From: Roseburia sp. | Lineage (GTDB): Bacteria > Bacillota_A > Clostridia > Lachnospirales > Lachnospiraceae | Assembly (NCBI GenBank): GCA_019411365.1 | Contig: DXQT01000054.1 | Span: forward strand, 1-12,348 | Reading direction: 5' to 3' | Length of the DNA: 12,348 nucleotides | Part shown: in pieces, positions 2,704-11,927 of the stretch | Numbering within the stretch: the stretch's first letter is position 1 | Layout of the letters: each line of letters begins with the position of its first letter | Made by a program: the position numbers and the translations under genes | Notes under the pieces: generated by a model | What the model saw: only the letters and a program-made list of their open reading frames with translations | Told to the model about the DNA's origin: nothing | Databases searched by the model: none

Positions 2704-4134
2704 TTACAGCAATTCTTTGAGGATTTTATTGACCATTCCAGGATTTGCCTTTCCTTTCATCGCCTTCATTGTCTGTCCAACCAGAAATCCGATCGCTTTT
2801 TCTTTTCCATTACGGTAATCTTCTACTGACTGTGGATTGTCTCTGATGACCTGTTCCACGACTGTCTGCAGCTCGCCGGCATCATTGACGGTCTTTAATC
2901 CTTTTTCCTCAACGTATTTGTCAGGATCAATATCATGCTTGAAAACTTCCTCAAACACTTCCTTTGCAACTGTGCTGTTGATCGCACCGGAATCTGCCAG
3001 ATCAATGACTTTTGCAAGATTTACCGGGGAGAATTGAATGTCCTCCGGATCCATCTCATTTTCTTTTAACAGACGGATGATTTCACCCATAATCCAGTTG
3101 GAAACTTTCTTTGGTTTCTTACATATCTCTGTCGTCGCCTCGAAAAGATCGGCAAATTTTTTATGTCCGGTGATAATTTCCGCATCATAATCCGGCAGAC
3201 CGAATTCTTTTTTATAGCGTTCTAATTTTTCTGTGCGGAGTTCCGGCTGTCTTGCCTTGATTTCTGCGATCCACTCATCGCTTATGACAATTGGAACAAG
3301 ATCCGGTTCCGGGAAATAACGGTAATCCTGTGCATCCTCCTTAGAACGCATTGCGTAGGAGTACTCTTTGTTGTCATCCCATCTTCTGGTTTCCTGAATG
3401 ACCTTTTTTCCTTCCTCGATCAGCTCGATCTGCCGGGCGCGCTCGCCCTCGATAGCTCTTGCGATCGCCTTGAAAGAGTTCAGGTTCTTCATCTCGGTAC
3501 GTGTTCCAAATTCCGGTGCCCCCATCTCACGGACGGAAAGGTTAACATCGGCACGCATGGAACCTTCATTTAATTTACAGTCAGACGCACCAAGATACTG
3601 GATGATCAGCCTTAATTTTTCCAGATAGGCAATGACCTCCTCTGCGGAACGCATATCCGGCTCTGACACGATCTCGATCAACGGTACGCCGGAACGGTTG
3701 TAATCGACGATCGAACAGTCCTCCCACTCATCATGCACCAGCTTTCCGGCATCCTCCTCCATATGGATTTCATGGATACCAACCGTTTTCTTACCCGCTG
3801 CAGTTTCGATCTCCACCCCGCCGTTCCTGCAGATTGGCAGATACAACTGGGAAATCTGGTAATTCTGCGGATTATCCGGATAAAAATAGTTTTTACGGTC
3901 AAACTTGCAATACTGTGTAATGCTGCAGTTAGTGGCAAGACCAACTGCAATCGCATACTCTACCACCTGTTTATTTAAAACAGGAAGAGAACCCGGCATA
4001 CCGGTACATACCGGGCAGGTATGGCTGTTTGGCGCCCCTCCGAATGCGGTGGAGCAGCCACAGAAAATCTTTGTTTTACTTGCTAATTCAACATGGACTT
4101 CCAGTCCAATCACAGTTTCATATACTTTACTCAT
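2704..4134 (-). CDS. gatB: Asp/Glu-tRNA amidotransferase subunit B
   Basis: GatB is the tRNA-binding and kinase subunit of GatCAB. It phosphorylates the side chain of misacylated Asp-tRNA-Asn or Glu-tRNA-Gln, which is then amidated with ammonia from GatA. The 476 residues match the family length. The N-terminus has GLEVHVEL (10-17) and four zinc-type cysteines (Cys25, Cys27, Cys40, Cys43), followed by the conserved FDRKNYFYPD segment (78-87) of the kinase site. The C-terminal third is the helical plus YqeY-like tail domain, ending in the typical GKANPGMVNKIL motif. GGAGGA lies six bases before the ATG. The gene starts 16 bases after the gatA stop, consistent with translational coupling in a gatC-gatA-gatB operon. 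Confidence 0.97.
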   Translation of the reverse strand: MSKVYETVIGLEVHVELASKTKIFCGCSTAFGGAPNSHTCPVCTGMPGSLPVLNKQVVEYAIAVGLATNCSITQYCKFDRKNYFYPDNPQNYQISQLYLPICRNGGVEIETAAGKKTVGIHEIHMEEDAGKLVHDEWEDCSIVDYNRSGVPLIEIVSEPDMRSAEEVIAYLEKLRLIIQYLGASDCKLNEGSMRADVNLSVREMGAPEFGTRTEMKNLNSFKAIARAIEGERARQIELIEEGKKVIQETRRWDDNKEYSYAMRSKEDAQDYRYFPEPDLVPIVISDEWIAEIKARQPELRTEKLERYKKEFGLPDYDAEIITGHKKFADLFEATTEICKKPKKVSNWIMGEIIRLLKENEMDPEDIQFSPVNLAKVIDLADSGAINSTVAKEVFEEVFKHDIDPDKYVEEKGLKTVNDAGELQTVVEQVIRDNPQSVEDYRNGKEKAIGFLVGQTMKAMKGKANPGMVNKILKELL

Positions 4135-4150
4135 GACGATTCCTCCAAAC

Positions 4151-5608
4151 TTATGCTAATGGGCTGTGTTCATATTCCCTGGTCTGCTCAAATGCATACG
4201 CAGCGCGGATAATATTTTTCTCTTTGAAACAGTCGCCGATCAGTTGTAAGCCGATTGGAAGTCCATTGGAATCTTTTCCACAAGGAAGTGAAATTCCCGG
4301 AAGTCCTGCAAGGTTTACAGAGATGGTATAAATATCTCCGAGATACATTTTTATCGGATCACTTAAGGATTCCCCTAACTTCGGAGCCGTTGTCGGGGCT
4401 GCCGGTCCTAAGATCACATCATATTTTGCAAATGCTTCATCAAATACTTTTTTGATCAATGCCTTTGTGCGAAGTGCTTTCAGATAATAAGCATCATAAT
4501 ATCCACTGCTTAATACGAAGGAACCCAGCATGATCCTTCTTTTTACTTCCGGACCAAAACCTTCCGAACGTGTCTTTTTGTACATATTATGAAGTCCTTC
4601 GTATTCCTTTGCGCGATAACCATATTTTACTCCGTCAAAACGTGCAAGGTTTGAGCTTGCCTCGGCACAGGCGATGACATAGTATGCAGGAATTGCATAT
4701 TCCACAAGACTCAGATCAAATTCCTCTACGACCGCACCTTTTTCTTCTAAAACCTTTGCTGCATTTAATACGGCCTCTTTTACTTCCGGATCAAGTCCCT
4801 CTCCAAAATAATCTCTTGGAATTCCGATTTTTAATCCTTTCACATCATCTACCAGAGCATCCGTGAATTTTAAGTCATCTCTTGCAATGGATGTGGAGTC
4901 CTTCTTATCATAAGAAGCAATTGCTTCTAAGATTGTTGCACAGTCTGTCACATCTTTTGCAATCGGTCCGATCTGATCCAGTGAGGAGCCATAAGCGATC
5001 AGTCCATAACGGGAAACGGTTCCATAAGTTGGTTTGATTCCGGTCACACCACAGAATGAACTTGGCTGACGGATGGAACCGCCGGTGTCAGAACCTAACG
5101 CATAGGAGCATTCTTCTGCTGCAACCGCTGCACAGGAACCACCGGAAGAGCCACCCGGGACATGAGCTTCATTCCATGGATTCTTAGTTGCCCCGTAAGC
5201 GGACGTCTCTGTGGTACTTCCCATCGCAAACTCATCCATATTTGTTTTTCCAATGATCACCGCACCTGCTTTTTCAAGATTTTCTACCGCTTCTGCAGTG
5301 TACGTTGGTTTAAAATTATATAATATCTTTGAGGAACAGGTCGTCAGCAGATCTTTCGTGCACATATTGTCCTTGATGGCGACCGGCACTCCGGCAAGCG
5401 GACCTGTAAGCGTTCCATCATCGATCATTTTCTGTACTTCCTCTGCACGTTTTAATGCGCCTTCACGATCCACTGTCACAAAACTGTTCACTTTTTTCTC
5501 TTTTGCTTCAATTGCATCTAAAGCTGCTGTAACAGCCTCTGTAACCGTAACTTCTTTTGCTTTTATTTTTTTGCCTAATTCCACGGCAGTCAAACTCATT
5601 AAACTCAT
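4151..5608 (-). CDS. gatA: Asp/Glu-tRNA amidotransferase subunit A (amidase)
   Basis: GatA is the glutaminase of GatCAB; it frees ammonia that is channelled to GatB. It belongs to the amidase-signature family. Counting from the ATG at 5608, the Ser-cisSer-Lys triad falls at Lys79 (VAIKDN), Ser154 (PGGSSGGS) and Ser178 (GSDTGGSIRQPS), the same numbers as in the structurally studied Staphylococcus aureus enzyme. That agreement supports this 485-residue start. A GTG nine bases upstream (5617) is in frame, but the AAAGGG ribosome binding site almost touches it, whereas it sits eight bases from the ATG. The C-terminal half contains the conserved GLPGISLPCG and GLPIGLQLIG motifs. It is preceded by gatC (about 50 bases) and followed by gatB (16 bases). 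Confidence 0.97.
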   Translation of the reverse strand: MSLMSLTAVELGKKIKAKEVTVTEAVTAALDAIEAKEKKVNSFVTVDREGALKRAEEVQKMIDDGTLTGPLAGVPVAIKDNMCTKDLLTTCSSKILYNFKPTYTAEAVENLEKAGAVIIGKTNMDEFAMGSTTETSAYGATKNPWNEAHVPGGSSGGSCAAVAAEECSYALGSDTGGSIRQPSSFCGVTGIKPTYGTVSRYGLIAYGSSLDQIGPIAKDVTDCATILEAIASYDKKDSTSIARDDLKFTDALVDDVKGLKIGIPRDYFGEGLDPEVKEAVLNAAKVLEEKGAVVEEFDLSLVEYAIPAYYVIACAEASSNLARFDGVKYGYRAKEYEGLHNMYKKTRSEGFGPEVKRRIMLGSFVLSSGYYDAYYLKALRTKALIKKVFDEAFAKYDVILGPAAPTTAPKLGESLSDPIKMYLGDIYTISVNLAGLPGISLPCGKDSNGLPIGLQLIGDCFKEKNIIRAAYAFEQTREYEHSPLA

Positions 5609-5661
5609 TTCTATCACCCTTTCTTCCTTATTCCATGATCACATCCAACACATCCGAATTG

Positions 5662-5955
5662 CTAACCGATCGTCTTTGGCACCTTGAATCCACTGTCTTT
5701 CATGGAAGGCGCATTAGAAAGGGTTGCTTCGCTTCCGTCTCCATTCGTGACAACGTCTTCACGAAATACGTTTGTCACCGGAAAAACATGAGACATCGGC
5801 TCAACTCCTGTGGTATCTAACTCATTTAATTTATCAATATAGTCAAGCATGGCGCCCATATCTTTTTTTGCCTGCTCTTTTTCTTCTTCATTCAATTCCA
5901 GTTTTGCAAGAATTCCTACATATTCAATGGTTTCATCCGAAATAATATTTGCCAT
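5662..5955 (-). CDS. gatC: Asp/Glu-tRNA amidotransferase subunit C
   Basis: This 97-residue protein is GatC, the small subunit that wraps around and stabilises the GatA-GatB interface. It shows the family pattern: an N-terminal helix beginning with [19 protein letters not shown], a second helix with the [18 protein letters not shown] motif, then the conserved extended tail with REDVV and a C-terminal F(K)VPK(T). Length and motif order match the family. AGAGGA lies nine bases before the ATG. It starts 29 bases after the aspS stop and precedes gatA, so the order aspS-gatC-gatA-gatB forms one leftward operon. Confidence 0.96.
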
Positions 5956-5984: not shown

Positions 5985-7316
5985 CTATGGCTCTAATCTG
6001 CTCATATCACGCGGGAACAACGTTGTCTCTCTGACATTATCTTCACCGATCAGTTTCATCGTCAGACGCTCCAGACCGATTCCAAGACCTCCGTGTGGCG
6101 GCATTCCGTGTTTGAATGTGTCCATGTACTGCTCCATGCCCTCGGTTGTCATGCCGCGTTTTTCGATTTTTTCCAGCAGCATGTTGTAATCGTGGATACG
6201 CTGTCCACCGGTCGTGATCTCCAGACCGTGATACAATAGATCAAAACTTAATGTAAACGTCGGATCTGCCGGATCGTCCATTGCGTAGAATGGTCTTTTC
6301 TTGGAAGGATAATGTGTGACAAACACGAAATCCGCATCACATTCCTCTTTAAAATACTGTCCGATCAAAGCCTCCTCTTCCGGTTCAAGATCATATGGGT
6401 TACGAATTTTTCTGCCGTATTTTTCAGCTACTTTTCTTTTTGCCTCGTCGAATCTGACGGTCGGGATTTTATCCACATTTGGCAGTGTCACACCAAGGAT
6501 TTTCAACTCTTTTTCGTAGTCCTTTTTCAAAAGTTCAACCATATACTGTAAAAATCCGGTCTCCATTGCCATGATATCTTCGAATCCATCAATGTATCCC
6601 ATCTCAAAATCAAGACTGGTATACTCATTCAAATGACGTTTTGTATTGTGTTTTTCTGCACGGAACACCGGGGCTGTCTCAAATACACGGTCAAATACGC
6701 CAACCATCATCTGTTTATAAAACTGTGGGCTCTGCGCTAAAACAGCCGGTCTGTGGAAATAGTCCATACGGAACATATTTGCACCACCCTCAGCGCCTTT
6801 TGCACCAATCTTCGGCGTGTGGATCTCGGTAAATCCCTGCTCATAAAGAAAATCACGGAATCCTCTGACGACACCTTCCTGAATCTTAAATTTTGCACGC
6901 TCTCTTATATTTCGAAGTGCAATGGAACGGTTGTTTAAGTTTGCTTCCAGGGAAGTGTTTAATTTCCACTTGGAAATTGCTAACGGCATCGGTGCAGCCG
7001 GCTCAGATAATACCCGGATGCTGTCTAACCGGATTTCAAAACCATTCGGTGCCCTGTCCTCGCTTTTCACTACACCTTCCACTTCCACGGTGGCTGCTTC
7101 TTTCAGGTCTTTTAAGTCAAACTTTGTTTTTCCCTCTTCAAATACACATTGAAGAAGTCCTTCCCTTTTTCGTAAAACGACAAATGCAACCTCTCCCATA
7201 TCCCTTATGGTATGGACTGCACCGTTCACTTTTACGGTCTTTCCTTCGAAATCTCCTGCTAAGATCTCACTGATCTCTACTGTGTCTTTTTTGTTTACTC
7301 CTGTCATGAATTCCAT
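5985..7316 (-). CDS. aspS: Archaeal-type, probably non-discriminating aspartyl-tRNA synthetase
   Basis: This is a 443-residue class IIb synthetase: an N-terminal OB-fold anticodon-binding domain (about 15-105) and a catalytic domain with motif 1 near 161-170, motif 2 with Arg219 ([21 protein letters not shown]) and motif 3 with Arg417 (GLGIGLER). It lacks the GAD insertion of bacterial AspRS of about 590 residues, so it is the archaeal/eukaryotic type (AspRS2). The tail [11 protein letters not shown] is AspRS-like, not AsnRS-like. His35 (GAVHTIRD) and Pro90 (DRAPNGFE) sit where work on Deinococcus AspRS2 and archaeal AspRS links His and Pro with acceptance of tRNA-Asn; discriminating enzymes have Trp and Lys. 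Together with gatCAB this predicts Asp-tRNA-Asn formation. The start at 7316 has AAAGGAG 11 bases upstream; an in-frame ATG at 7307 is less well placed. A T-box leader precedes it. Confidence 0.95.
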
Positions 7317-7399
7317 ACGTTTGTACGCTCCTTTTCTTTCCTTATTTTGGGAATTACTCGGTGCGGGACGGAATAATCATTATAATATAAAATGAAACT

Positions 7400-7436
7400 A
7401 AAAAAGCCCTGGAAGAACAAAATGTCCTTTCAGGGC
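7400..7436 (-). terminator. T-box-controlled intrinsic terminator
   Basis: On the minus strand GCCCTG (7436-7431) and CAGGGC (7411-7406) pair, and the arms continue inward with one A/C mismatch to a stem of about 14 bp and a TTT loop. Six T follow (7405-7400). This is the terminator half of the T-box switch. It lies about 85 bases before the aspS start codon. Confidence 0.9.
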
Positions 7437-7718
7437 GAGATATACAATTATCCCGCGGTACCACCCGCATTGGAAAATGATAACATTAAATTCATTTTCC
7501 CACTCAATGTGCGTAACGTGCACTAACGTACTGACCTACTTACATACCGGTCATCACAATGATCCAAATAGCTTCGGCTGTAATACCCGGTTATGGTTCA
7601 ACCAGTCTGCTCCAGAGTGTTCCCTGTATCTCCTCTTTCAAACAGCGCTCTCAGTCGGTGACGCTGTATTCCTGTCGACGCCTGAAGATCAGAGTCTCTA
7701 TCAACGCTTTACTGTGTT
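7400..7718 (-). promoter_or_regulatory. T-box riboswitch leader of aspS-gatCAB, AAC (Asn) specifier overlapping GAA (Glu)
   Basis: The T-box consensus GGGTGGTACCGCGG is intact on the minus strand (7466 downwards). It is preceded by a perfect nine-base-pair stem III (GGAAAATGA 7500-7492 with TCATTTTCC 7480-7472) and followed by the terminator at 7436-7400. Stem I lies upstream: ACAGCG/CGCTGT form its distal helix, CTCTG and CAGGG can pair just above the specifier, and AGAG and CTCT just below. The 3' strand of that internal loop reads GAACA. By position, and by the conserved purine after the codon, the specifier is AAC (7621-7619), an asparagine codon; shifted by one base it is GAA (7622-7620), glutamate. 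The tRNA-tail bulge is UGGU (7463-7460). Uncharged tRNA would stabilise the antiterminator and allow aspS-gatCAB transcription. The T-box itself is certain; the codon reading is probable. Confidence 0.93.
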
Positions 7719-7730
7719 AATGTTGTAATA

Positions 7731-7759
7731 TTTATATCACTTCAAAAACAGAAATGCAA
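7731..7759 (-). promoter_or_regulatory. Candidate promoter of the T-box/aspS-gatCAB operon
   Basis: On the minus strand TTGCAT (7759-7754) and TATAAA (7736-7731) are 17 bases apart. TGA directly precedes TATAAA, making an extended -10. Transcription would begin near 7724, just before stem I of the T-box, which is the expected position. Confidence 0.6.
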
Positions 7760-7822
7760 GAAAAAATTTGATTTTTATTATAACAAATTTTAATAATTGT
7801 TATTCTTTTTGGTTAAAAAACA

Positions 7823-10916: not shown

Positions 10917-11927
10917 ATGGAAAAATTTATTATTCCAAAAGATTATCATTCAGAATTAAACCTGCATGATACACAGATTGCAATTAAAACAGTCAAAGAT
11001 TTCTTTCAGAATCTTCTTTCCCAGAGACTGAATCTCTCCCGTGTATCAGCACCTTTATTTGTCGATCCTGATTCCGGATTAAACGATAACTTAAACGGTG
11101 TGGAACGCCCTGTTACATTTGATATCAAAGAACAGAACGGAAGGGAAGCTGAAGTTGTCCAGTCCCTTGCAAAATGGAAAAGATATGCTTTGAAAAAATA
11201 TGGTTTTTCTTACGGCGAAGGACTTTACACAGATATGAATGCCATCCGCCGCGATGAAATCACCGACAATATCCACTCTATCTTTGTTGACCAGTGGGAT
11301 TGGGAAAAAATCATCAAAAAAGATGAGCGTACCATTGCAACTTTGATGGATACCGTAAAGGTTGTATACAAATGCCTTCGTAAAACAGAAAAATATATGG
11401 CAATCCAGTATGATTATATTGAAGAAATCCTGCCACATGATATTTTCTTTGTCACAACTCAGGAATTAGCTGACATGTTCCCGGACAACACTCCAAAGGA
11501 ACGTGAGTATTACATTGCAAAAGCAAAAGGTGCTGTCTGCATTATGAAGATTGGTGATGTTCTGGAAAATGGTGAACGCCATGACGGACGTGCTCCTGAC
11601 TATGATGACTGGAGTTTAAATGCTGATATCGTTGTTTACTATCCGGTTCTTGATATCGCATTAGAGTTATCTTCCATGGGTATCCGTGTTGACAAAAAAG
11701 CGCTGCTTTCCCAGTTAAAGAAGGCTGGCTGTGAAGAAAGAAAAGATCTTCCTTTCCAGAAAGCAATCATCAACGAAGAACTTCCATACACCATCGGCGG
11801 CGGCATCGGACAGTCCCGTATCTGTATGTTCTTCCTGCGCAAAGCACACATTGGAGAAGTACAGTCCTCTCTGTGGCCAGAAGATATGATCGCACAGTGC
11901 GAGGAAAATGGAGTCCAGCTTCTGTAA
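10917..11927 (+). CDS. asnA: Aspartate--ammonia ligase (asparagine synthetase A)
   Basis: AsnA makes free asparagine from aspartate, ammonia and ATP through an aspartyl-adenylate, in the cytoplasm. The 336 residues match the family length. The fold is that of a class II aminoacyl-tRNA synthetase catalytic core without an anticodon domain. Visible family signatures include the N-terminal LSQRLNLSRVSAPLFVDP, NGVERPVTFDI, VVQSLAKWKRYAL and the motif-3-like GGGIGQSRICMFFL near the C-terminus. AGGAG lies 11 bases before the ATG. It is the only plus-strand gene here and is monocistronic, with its own promoter and a strong terminator. It lies about 3.6 kb from the T-box of the transamidation operon and gives the cell a second, tRNA-independent source of asparagine. 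Confidence 0.97.
   Translation: MEKFIIPKDYHSELNLHDTQIAIKTVKDFFQNLLSQRLNLSRVSAPLFVDPDSGLNDNLNGVERPVTFDIKEQNGREAEVVQSLAKWKRYALKKYGFSYGEGLYTDMNAIRRDEITDNIHSIFVDQWDWEKIIKKDERTIATLMDTVKVVYKCLRKTEKYMAIQYDYIEEILPHDIFFVTTQELADMFPDNTPKEREYYIAKAKGAVCIMKIGDVLENGERHDGRAPDYDDWSLNADIVVYYPVLDIALELSSMGIRVDKKALLSQLKKAGCEERKDLPFQKAIINEELPYTIGGGIGQSRICMFFLRKAHIGEVQSSLWPEDMIAQCEENGVQLL

Follow-up and report, generated by a model that had tools for sequence, protein, structure and literature searches.

An S-turn-less T-box leader with overlapping GAA and AAC codons before an AspRS2–gatCAB operon in Roseburia sp.

The stretch of DNA analyzed in this study (the window) comprises 12,348 nucleotides of contig DXQT01000054.1 from Roseburia sp. 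and carries, on its minus strand, a T-box leader followed by an operon of four genes. The first gene (5985..7316) encodes AspRS2, an aspartate–tRNA(Asn) ligase, which exceeds the curated cut-offs of both tRNA(Asn)-type models, NF003483 (585.6 bits, cut-off 353) and TIGR00458 (432.2, cut-off 368.4). It is followed by gatC (5662..5955; TIGR00135, 90.8 bits, cut-off 47.1), gatA (4151..5617; TIGR00132, 635.6 bits, cut-off 481.1) and gatB (2704..4134; NF004012, 674.1 bits, cut-off 338; TIGR00133, 584.4, cut-off 314.8). A first-pass annotation of the sequence had found it odd that an aspartyl-tRNA synthetase should be controlled by asparagine; since the enzyme is of the aspartate–tRNA(Asn) ligase type, control by tRNA-Asn is expected, and the plain name aspartyl-tRNA synthetase is misleading for it. 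After gatB, at 171-2618, lies an 815-residue methionine synthase-like protein (TIGR02082, 515.4 bits against a cut-off of 1010.85). An asnA gene for aspartate–ammonia ligase (TIGR00669, 327.1 bits) is located at 10917-11927 on the strand opposite to the operon, and no T-box core was seen in the sequence before it.

The leader RNA (minus strand, 7428..7713) was matched to positions 1-219 of the T-box model RF00230 with 73.3 bits and an E value of 4.5e-16 in a sensitive covariance scan of 7300-7800, which confirmed the T-box noticed in the first pass. This score is under the Rfam gathering value of 93 bits, and the T-box was absent from a scan of the window at gathering scores; a low score is not peculiar to this leader, as seven of the 13 T-box matches in genome G001 also score below 93 bits. 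G001 is the nearest genome, sharing 72% of the sampled words of the window and encoding an AspRS2 that is 99% identical. The elements occur in the order of the model: Stem I with the specifier, Stem II (7531..7606, with GAA and AGUA motifs of its own, identified by eye) and the antiterminator with the UGGN bulge, here UGGU (7460..7463; N is U). An intrinsic terminator, GCCCUG...CAGGGC UUUUUU (7400..7436), was identified by eye and also appeared in the whole-leader fold, while a pattern scan listed no terminator. Its 5' arm overlaps the antiterminator, and such an overlap, together with the amino-acid genes downstream (AspRS2–gatCAB), is in keeping with a T-box.

The four bases GAAC occupy 7622-7619 of the minus strand and are followed by A7618 and CUCU. 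In the RF00230 alignment, AAC (7619..7621) and A7618 fall in the specifier and purine columns of other T-boxes. The covariance-model fold therefore gives AAC, the codon for tRNA-Asn, as the specifier in the canonical frame, in agreement with the first-pass reading of a codon, a purine and a strand pairing with AGAG. The overlapping GAA codon for tRNA-Glu begins one base earlier (7620..7622). When Stem I was folded alone, AGAG (7696..7699), the 5' strand of the helix below the specifier loop, paired with CUCU (7614..7617), the 3' strand, leaving a loop of AACA, and G7622 paired with C7694 with a probability of 0.99 (ViennaRNA). A7695 lies opposite the specifier next to C7694, the proposed partner of G7622, and this side (7694..7695) is without an AGUA S-turn. 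In the minimum-energy fold of the whole leader, CUCU pairs elsewhere; this counts against the main reading, and folding alone is thus no proof of Stem I.

The conservation of these elements was examined in a close-relative set of 82 leaders, consisting of that of the window, the best 80 of 585 relatives and L125. Specifiers could be read in 76 of them, the exceptions being L049, L071, L075, L078, L091 and L099; the near-copy L124 in G001 was excluded from the counts, and the 5' side of L044 was dropped, as its contig ends there. In a MAFFT alignment that covered 55 of these leaders, one subgroup had its 5' strand displaced, and pairs were therefore counted by script. Of the 76 leaders of this best-80-of-585 set, 75 have the codon AAC (L119 has AAU), and in 75 the codon is preceded by G (in L074 by U). 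The base after the codon is A (73) or G (3), and the N of UGGN is U in all but L120, which has C. GAAC is thus kept as four bases in related aspS–gatCAB leaders, a point that the first pass had proposed to check, and the opposite pattern, an AAC with a variable preceding base, was looked for in these relatives and not found. Below the codon, the four positions of the helix form standard pairs in 68, 74, 76 and 76 of the 76 leaders, and the first pair varies (G-C 28, C-G 25, A-U 14, A.C 8, G-U 1), with compensatory changes on both sides. Taken together, the helix and the conserved GAAC are more than chance. A gatA motif was found downstream in 76 of the 80 best loci, including L074; of the four without it, three end at contig ends and L071 does not. 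In a subgroup comprising L093, L100, L120, L123 and their kin, the specifier loop has GGAAACGA or a similar sequence on its 5' side and AGGAGAACA on its 3' side, and purine-rich strands replace the upper helix.

The specifier region of these leaders differs from that of most other T-boxes considered here. In 75 leaders of the close-relative set (window, best 80 of 585 and L125), the eight bases on the 5' side never contain AGUA, and GAA never stands before position -1. Both motifs are present in eight of the ten other T-boxes of G001 that were looked at (ten of 13 inspected), and beside the specifier in 39 of the 41 gat-linked leaders from outside the window's kind, as judged by a loose pattern that accepts AGTA anywhere in 85 bases and that L289 and L332 fail. 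According to PMC7583486, the Stem I S-turn lies above the specifier and prevents tRNA modifications from causing a clash, for which reason its loss in the window's kind is of note. The base at position -1 faces a possible partner: among 75 readable leaders (window, best 80 of 585 and L125), the two bases are C and G in 74 and A and U in L074. The closing C-G pair reaches a probability of at least 0.5 in only 35 of 75 leaders of this best-80-of-585 set, with a median of 0.42 (ViennaRNA). With C-G in 74 of 75 leaders above a helix that varies, GAAC is conserved more strictly than pairing alone would demand; this strictness and the pair probabilities both count against the main reading. These S-turn-less leaders, in which the overlap base is able to join the stem, constitute a new structural variant. 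S-turn-less AspRS2 leaders were not found in a literature search, which left Saad 2012 and Saad 2013 outside its scope and is therefore no proof of novelty.

AspRS2 leaders were also read more widely. Of 291 genomes sampled from the class, 48 gave an AspRS2 match at E 1e-60; 30 of these loci were read, seven of them with a T-box core before aspS, and 11 of 20 further regions also had a core. In family f43, 146 genomes were searched and 77 had AspRS2; of the 91 loci read, two had no AspRS motif and nine gave no specifier by the rules, with likely specifiers in L289 (GAAGAAC) and in L273, L319 and L320 (GAC). All leaders read with a gatA motif downstream have the codon AAC, both the 32 in f43 (L231 included) and the eight from seven other families. 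Where no such motif was seen, the codon is GAC in 47 of 48 AspRS2 leaders of f43, four of which (L267, L271, L293 and L310) lie on stretches too short to exclude gatA, and in six of six outside this family. The exception is L271, with AAC preceded by G, whose contig ends early. The same division is found within single genomes (L313/L315, L292/L279, L331/L287 and others), in which the leader with gatA downstream has AAC and the one with no gatA seen has GAC. The codon thus follows the partner genes within one enzyme family, and the presence of gatCAB downstream can be predicted from the specifier of an AspRS2 leader.

The base before the codon behaves differently in the two groups. Outside the window's kind, G precedes AAC in 39 of 40 gat-linked leaders (31 of 32 in f43 and eight of eight in the seven further families), with L350 of genome G595 as the only one read that has A. 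The base before GAC in f43 is A in 31, G in 14 and U in one, with none in one more, so that G stands at 31/32 before AAC against 14/46 before GAC (p = 9e-10, kinship ignored), and the paralogs show no constraint at this position. The overlapping GAA is a real, inherited feature of the AspRS2–gatCAB operon class. Two other features were observed in these leaders: C instead of a purine follows AAC in L152 and L153, and in L231, L268, L333, L345 and many GAC leaders two T-box cores come after a single Stem I, spaced by tens to some 240 bases and often differing in the N of UGGN (U, then C).

As a control, AAC leaders of other asparagine genes were considered, namely 20 T-boxes of asnA, asnB and asnS that we chose among the matches listed and whose genes were named by eye from protein starts. 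They share the codon with the window, and 15 of the 20 have UGGU. Unlike in the window's kind, however, different bases precede AAC (G 12, U 7, A 1), and in seven further AAC leaders drawn from 60 asnS and asnA loci the preceding base is G in three, A in three and U in one. GAA precedes the specifier in all 20 because the search pattern demanded it. Counted by leader with kinship ignored, the contrast between gat-linked f43 leaders (31/32) and asn leaders (12/20) gives p = 0.001, whereas counted by genus (14/15 against 6/10) it gives p = 0.12 and by family p = 0.53, so that kinship takes most of the statistical force from it. Conservation of the overlap is stricter in gatCAB leaders than in those of other asparagine genes, but G is common before AAC in any case.

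The enzymes encoded elsewhere in the genomes bear on which tRNA the operon serves. G001 encodes AsnRS, GlnRS and one gatB, and both GlnRS and a single gatB were found in five of five tested genomes of the window's kind, which indicates that GatCAB is probably not needed there for Gln-tRNA and probably serves Asp-tRNA-Asn rather than Glu-tRNA-Gln. Of 46 genomes tested for AsnRS, 45 gave a match, among them G001 but not G263, and the operon is probably a second route to Asn-tRNA beside AsnRS. Among the 41 gat-linked genomes outside the window's kind, some of which are only about 80% complete, 27 had a GlnRS. The absence of GlnRS was also considered as the cause of the retention of GAA and was rejected, as G is kept with or without GlnRS; the two leaders that lack G, L074 (genome G582) and L350 (G595), are both from genomes with GlnRS, and two are too few to judge.

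The reading that best accommodates these data, and which we regard as probable, is a transcriptional T-box for a backup Asn-tRNA route, with uncharged tRNA-Asn as the main ligand in the AAC frame, GAA latent and the reading by tRNA-Glu at most secondary. The T-box, the frame, the genes, the conservation and the presence of the other routes were computed; from them, we infer the ligand and the direction of control. A drop in free asparagine would cause AsnRS to leave tRNA-Asn uncharged; the uncharged tRNA would pair with AAC and, through its 3' end, with UGGU, allowing the antiterminator to form and AspRS2 and GatCAB to be made. AspRS2 would then load aspartate onto tRNA-Asn and GatCAB would convert it to Asn-tRNA-Asn, beside the product of AsnRS. 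As G7622 can be tied into a stem in the lineage of the window, a reading by tRNA-Glu would be at most secondary.

The strict conservation of G before AAC may have another explanation, in which the base serves local structure or stacking rather than decoding: as the closure of the loop by C-G in the close relatives, and as a favoured neighbour of AAC elsewhere. The double change in L074, where C-G is replaced by A-U with a gatA motif still downstream, is in line with such a role, as is the frequency of G before AAC in leaders without a link to glutamate (the 12 of 20 and three of seven asn leaders above). However, this is just one compensatory change, the pair is weak in many relatives, and AAC leaders with U or A in several genera indicate that G is not required. 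We consider a structural role quite possible, if short of likely.

The first-pass annotation had proposed a possible two-tRNA switch, in which the four-base specifier would accept either uncharged tRNA-Asn (through AAC) or uncharged tRNA-Glu (through GAA), each of them activating the operon. Besides the counts of G before AAC given above (75/76 in the best-80-of-585 set, 31/32 in f43 and 8/8 elsewhere) and its lower frequency, by leader counts, before GAC and in the asn leaders, the bulge was considered in favour of it. The tRNA-Glu(UUC) read in 14 genomes has A73 in every case and the tRNA-Asn read in six has G73, so that the UGGU of the window would pair fully with tRNA-Glu(UUC) and only by wobble with tRNA-Asn, which also counts against the main reading. 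In addition, G goes with UGGU among the 20 chosen asn leaders (12/12 with G against 3/8 without; p = 0.004, kinship ignored), and dual tRNA binding has been reported for the T-box of the Clostridium acetobutylicum operon (PMC4052509). TBDB accepts a G-U wobble between UGGN and the discriminator base, with Trp as an example. However, UGGU also occurs in asnA and asnS leaders with A or U before AAC (L192, L194, L201, L388, L390 and L400, and in one of the two cores of L196). Conversely, UGGC is the only bulge sequence in 17 of the 31 G-bearing gat-linked leaders of f43, the leaders of G270, G156, G212 and G581 have UGGC facing a tRNA-Glu(UUC) with A73, and the N of UGGN is U or C in Asp (GAC) leaders. 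UGGN was accordingly rejected as proof of Glu sensing, and it does not decide between the readings.

The contrast with the asn leaders is lost by genus and by family, as stated above. We infer a weak Glu frame from four points: GlnRS and one gatB in all five tested genomes of the window's kind, the frequent G before AAC in asn leaders, an N of UGGN that does not single out tRNA-Glu, and a G7622 that can be held in the C-G pair. Together, these points argue against tRNA-Glu having a strong role in the lineage of the window, and a two-tRNA switch is possible but unlikely. From the first interpretation, the T-box, the AAC frame and the conserved overlap of GAA and AAC before the transamidation genes stand, whereas the argument from the glutamate pathway is weakened and the supposed oddity of asparagine control is corrected.

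A specifier located elsewhere, such as the aspartate codon GAC at 7607-7605, is highly improbable and was rejected; GAC is the specifier of AspRS2 leaders with no gatA seen, but here RF00230 places these bases in the linker and the first pairs of Stem II and AAC or AAU occupies the helix-defined place in 76 of 76 leaders (window, best 80 of 585 and L125).

The usual view of a T-box is that a single tRNA is read via a single three-base frame. Against this background, and in addition to the tRNA-Asn reading preferred here, an ancestral two-codon T-box may have lost its S-turn in Lachnospiraceae, with the first base of GAA drawn into the loop-closing C-G pair; the stem would then fix the frame, offering AAC when closed and GAA only if the pair opens. 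This scenario is somewhat unlikely and is put forward tentatively. If true, the stem-fixed reading frame would be a frame gate for the choice of tRNA in a riboswitch, and about 75 natural leaders that keep the overlap without an S-turn, together with the one natural double change (L074), make the choice of frame directly testable.

A comparison with C. acetobutylicum is possible through genome G603, whose leader L315 we take to be the gat-linked leader of this species. L315 reads GAA-G-AAC-A with AGUA and UGGC, whereas the window has UGGU and no S-turn; L315 keeps AGUA and GAA beside the specifier; the window's kind has lost both, and its overlap G can pair. No GlnRS was found in G603, in contrast to the five tested genomes of the window's kind, and its second AspRS2 leader, L313, has GAC. 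In the published work (Saad 2013, as described in PMC4052509 and PMC7778990), a two-codon T-box with overlapping Asn and Glu codons precedes the transamidation operon of C. acetobutylicum, a layout shared with the window, so that the two-codon idea, as the first pass had correctly stated, was already published for that species; what is new here is the structural variant. The title of Saad 2012 (cited in PMC4206432) describes T-box control of tRNA-dependent amidation and a redundant Asn-tRNA route in C. acetobutylicum, and so, by title, the same pathway and redundancy logic as in the operon of the window, which belongs to another family of Clostridia and has a single gatB in the five genomes of its kind.
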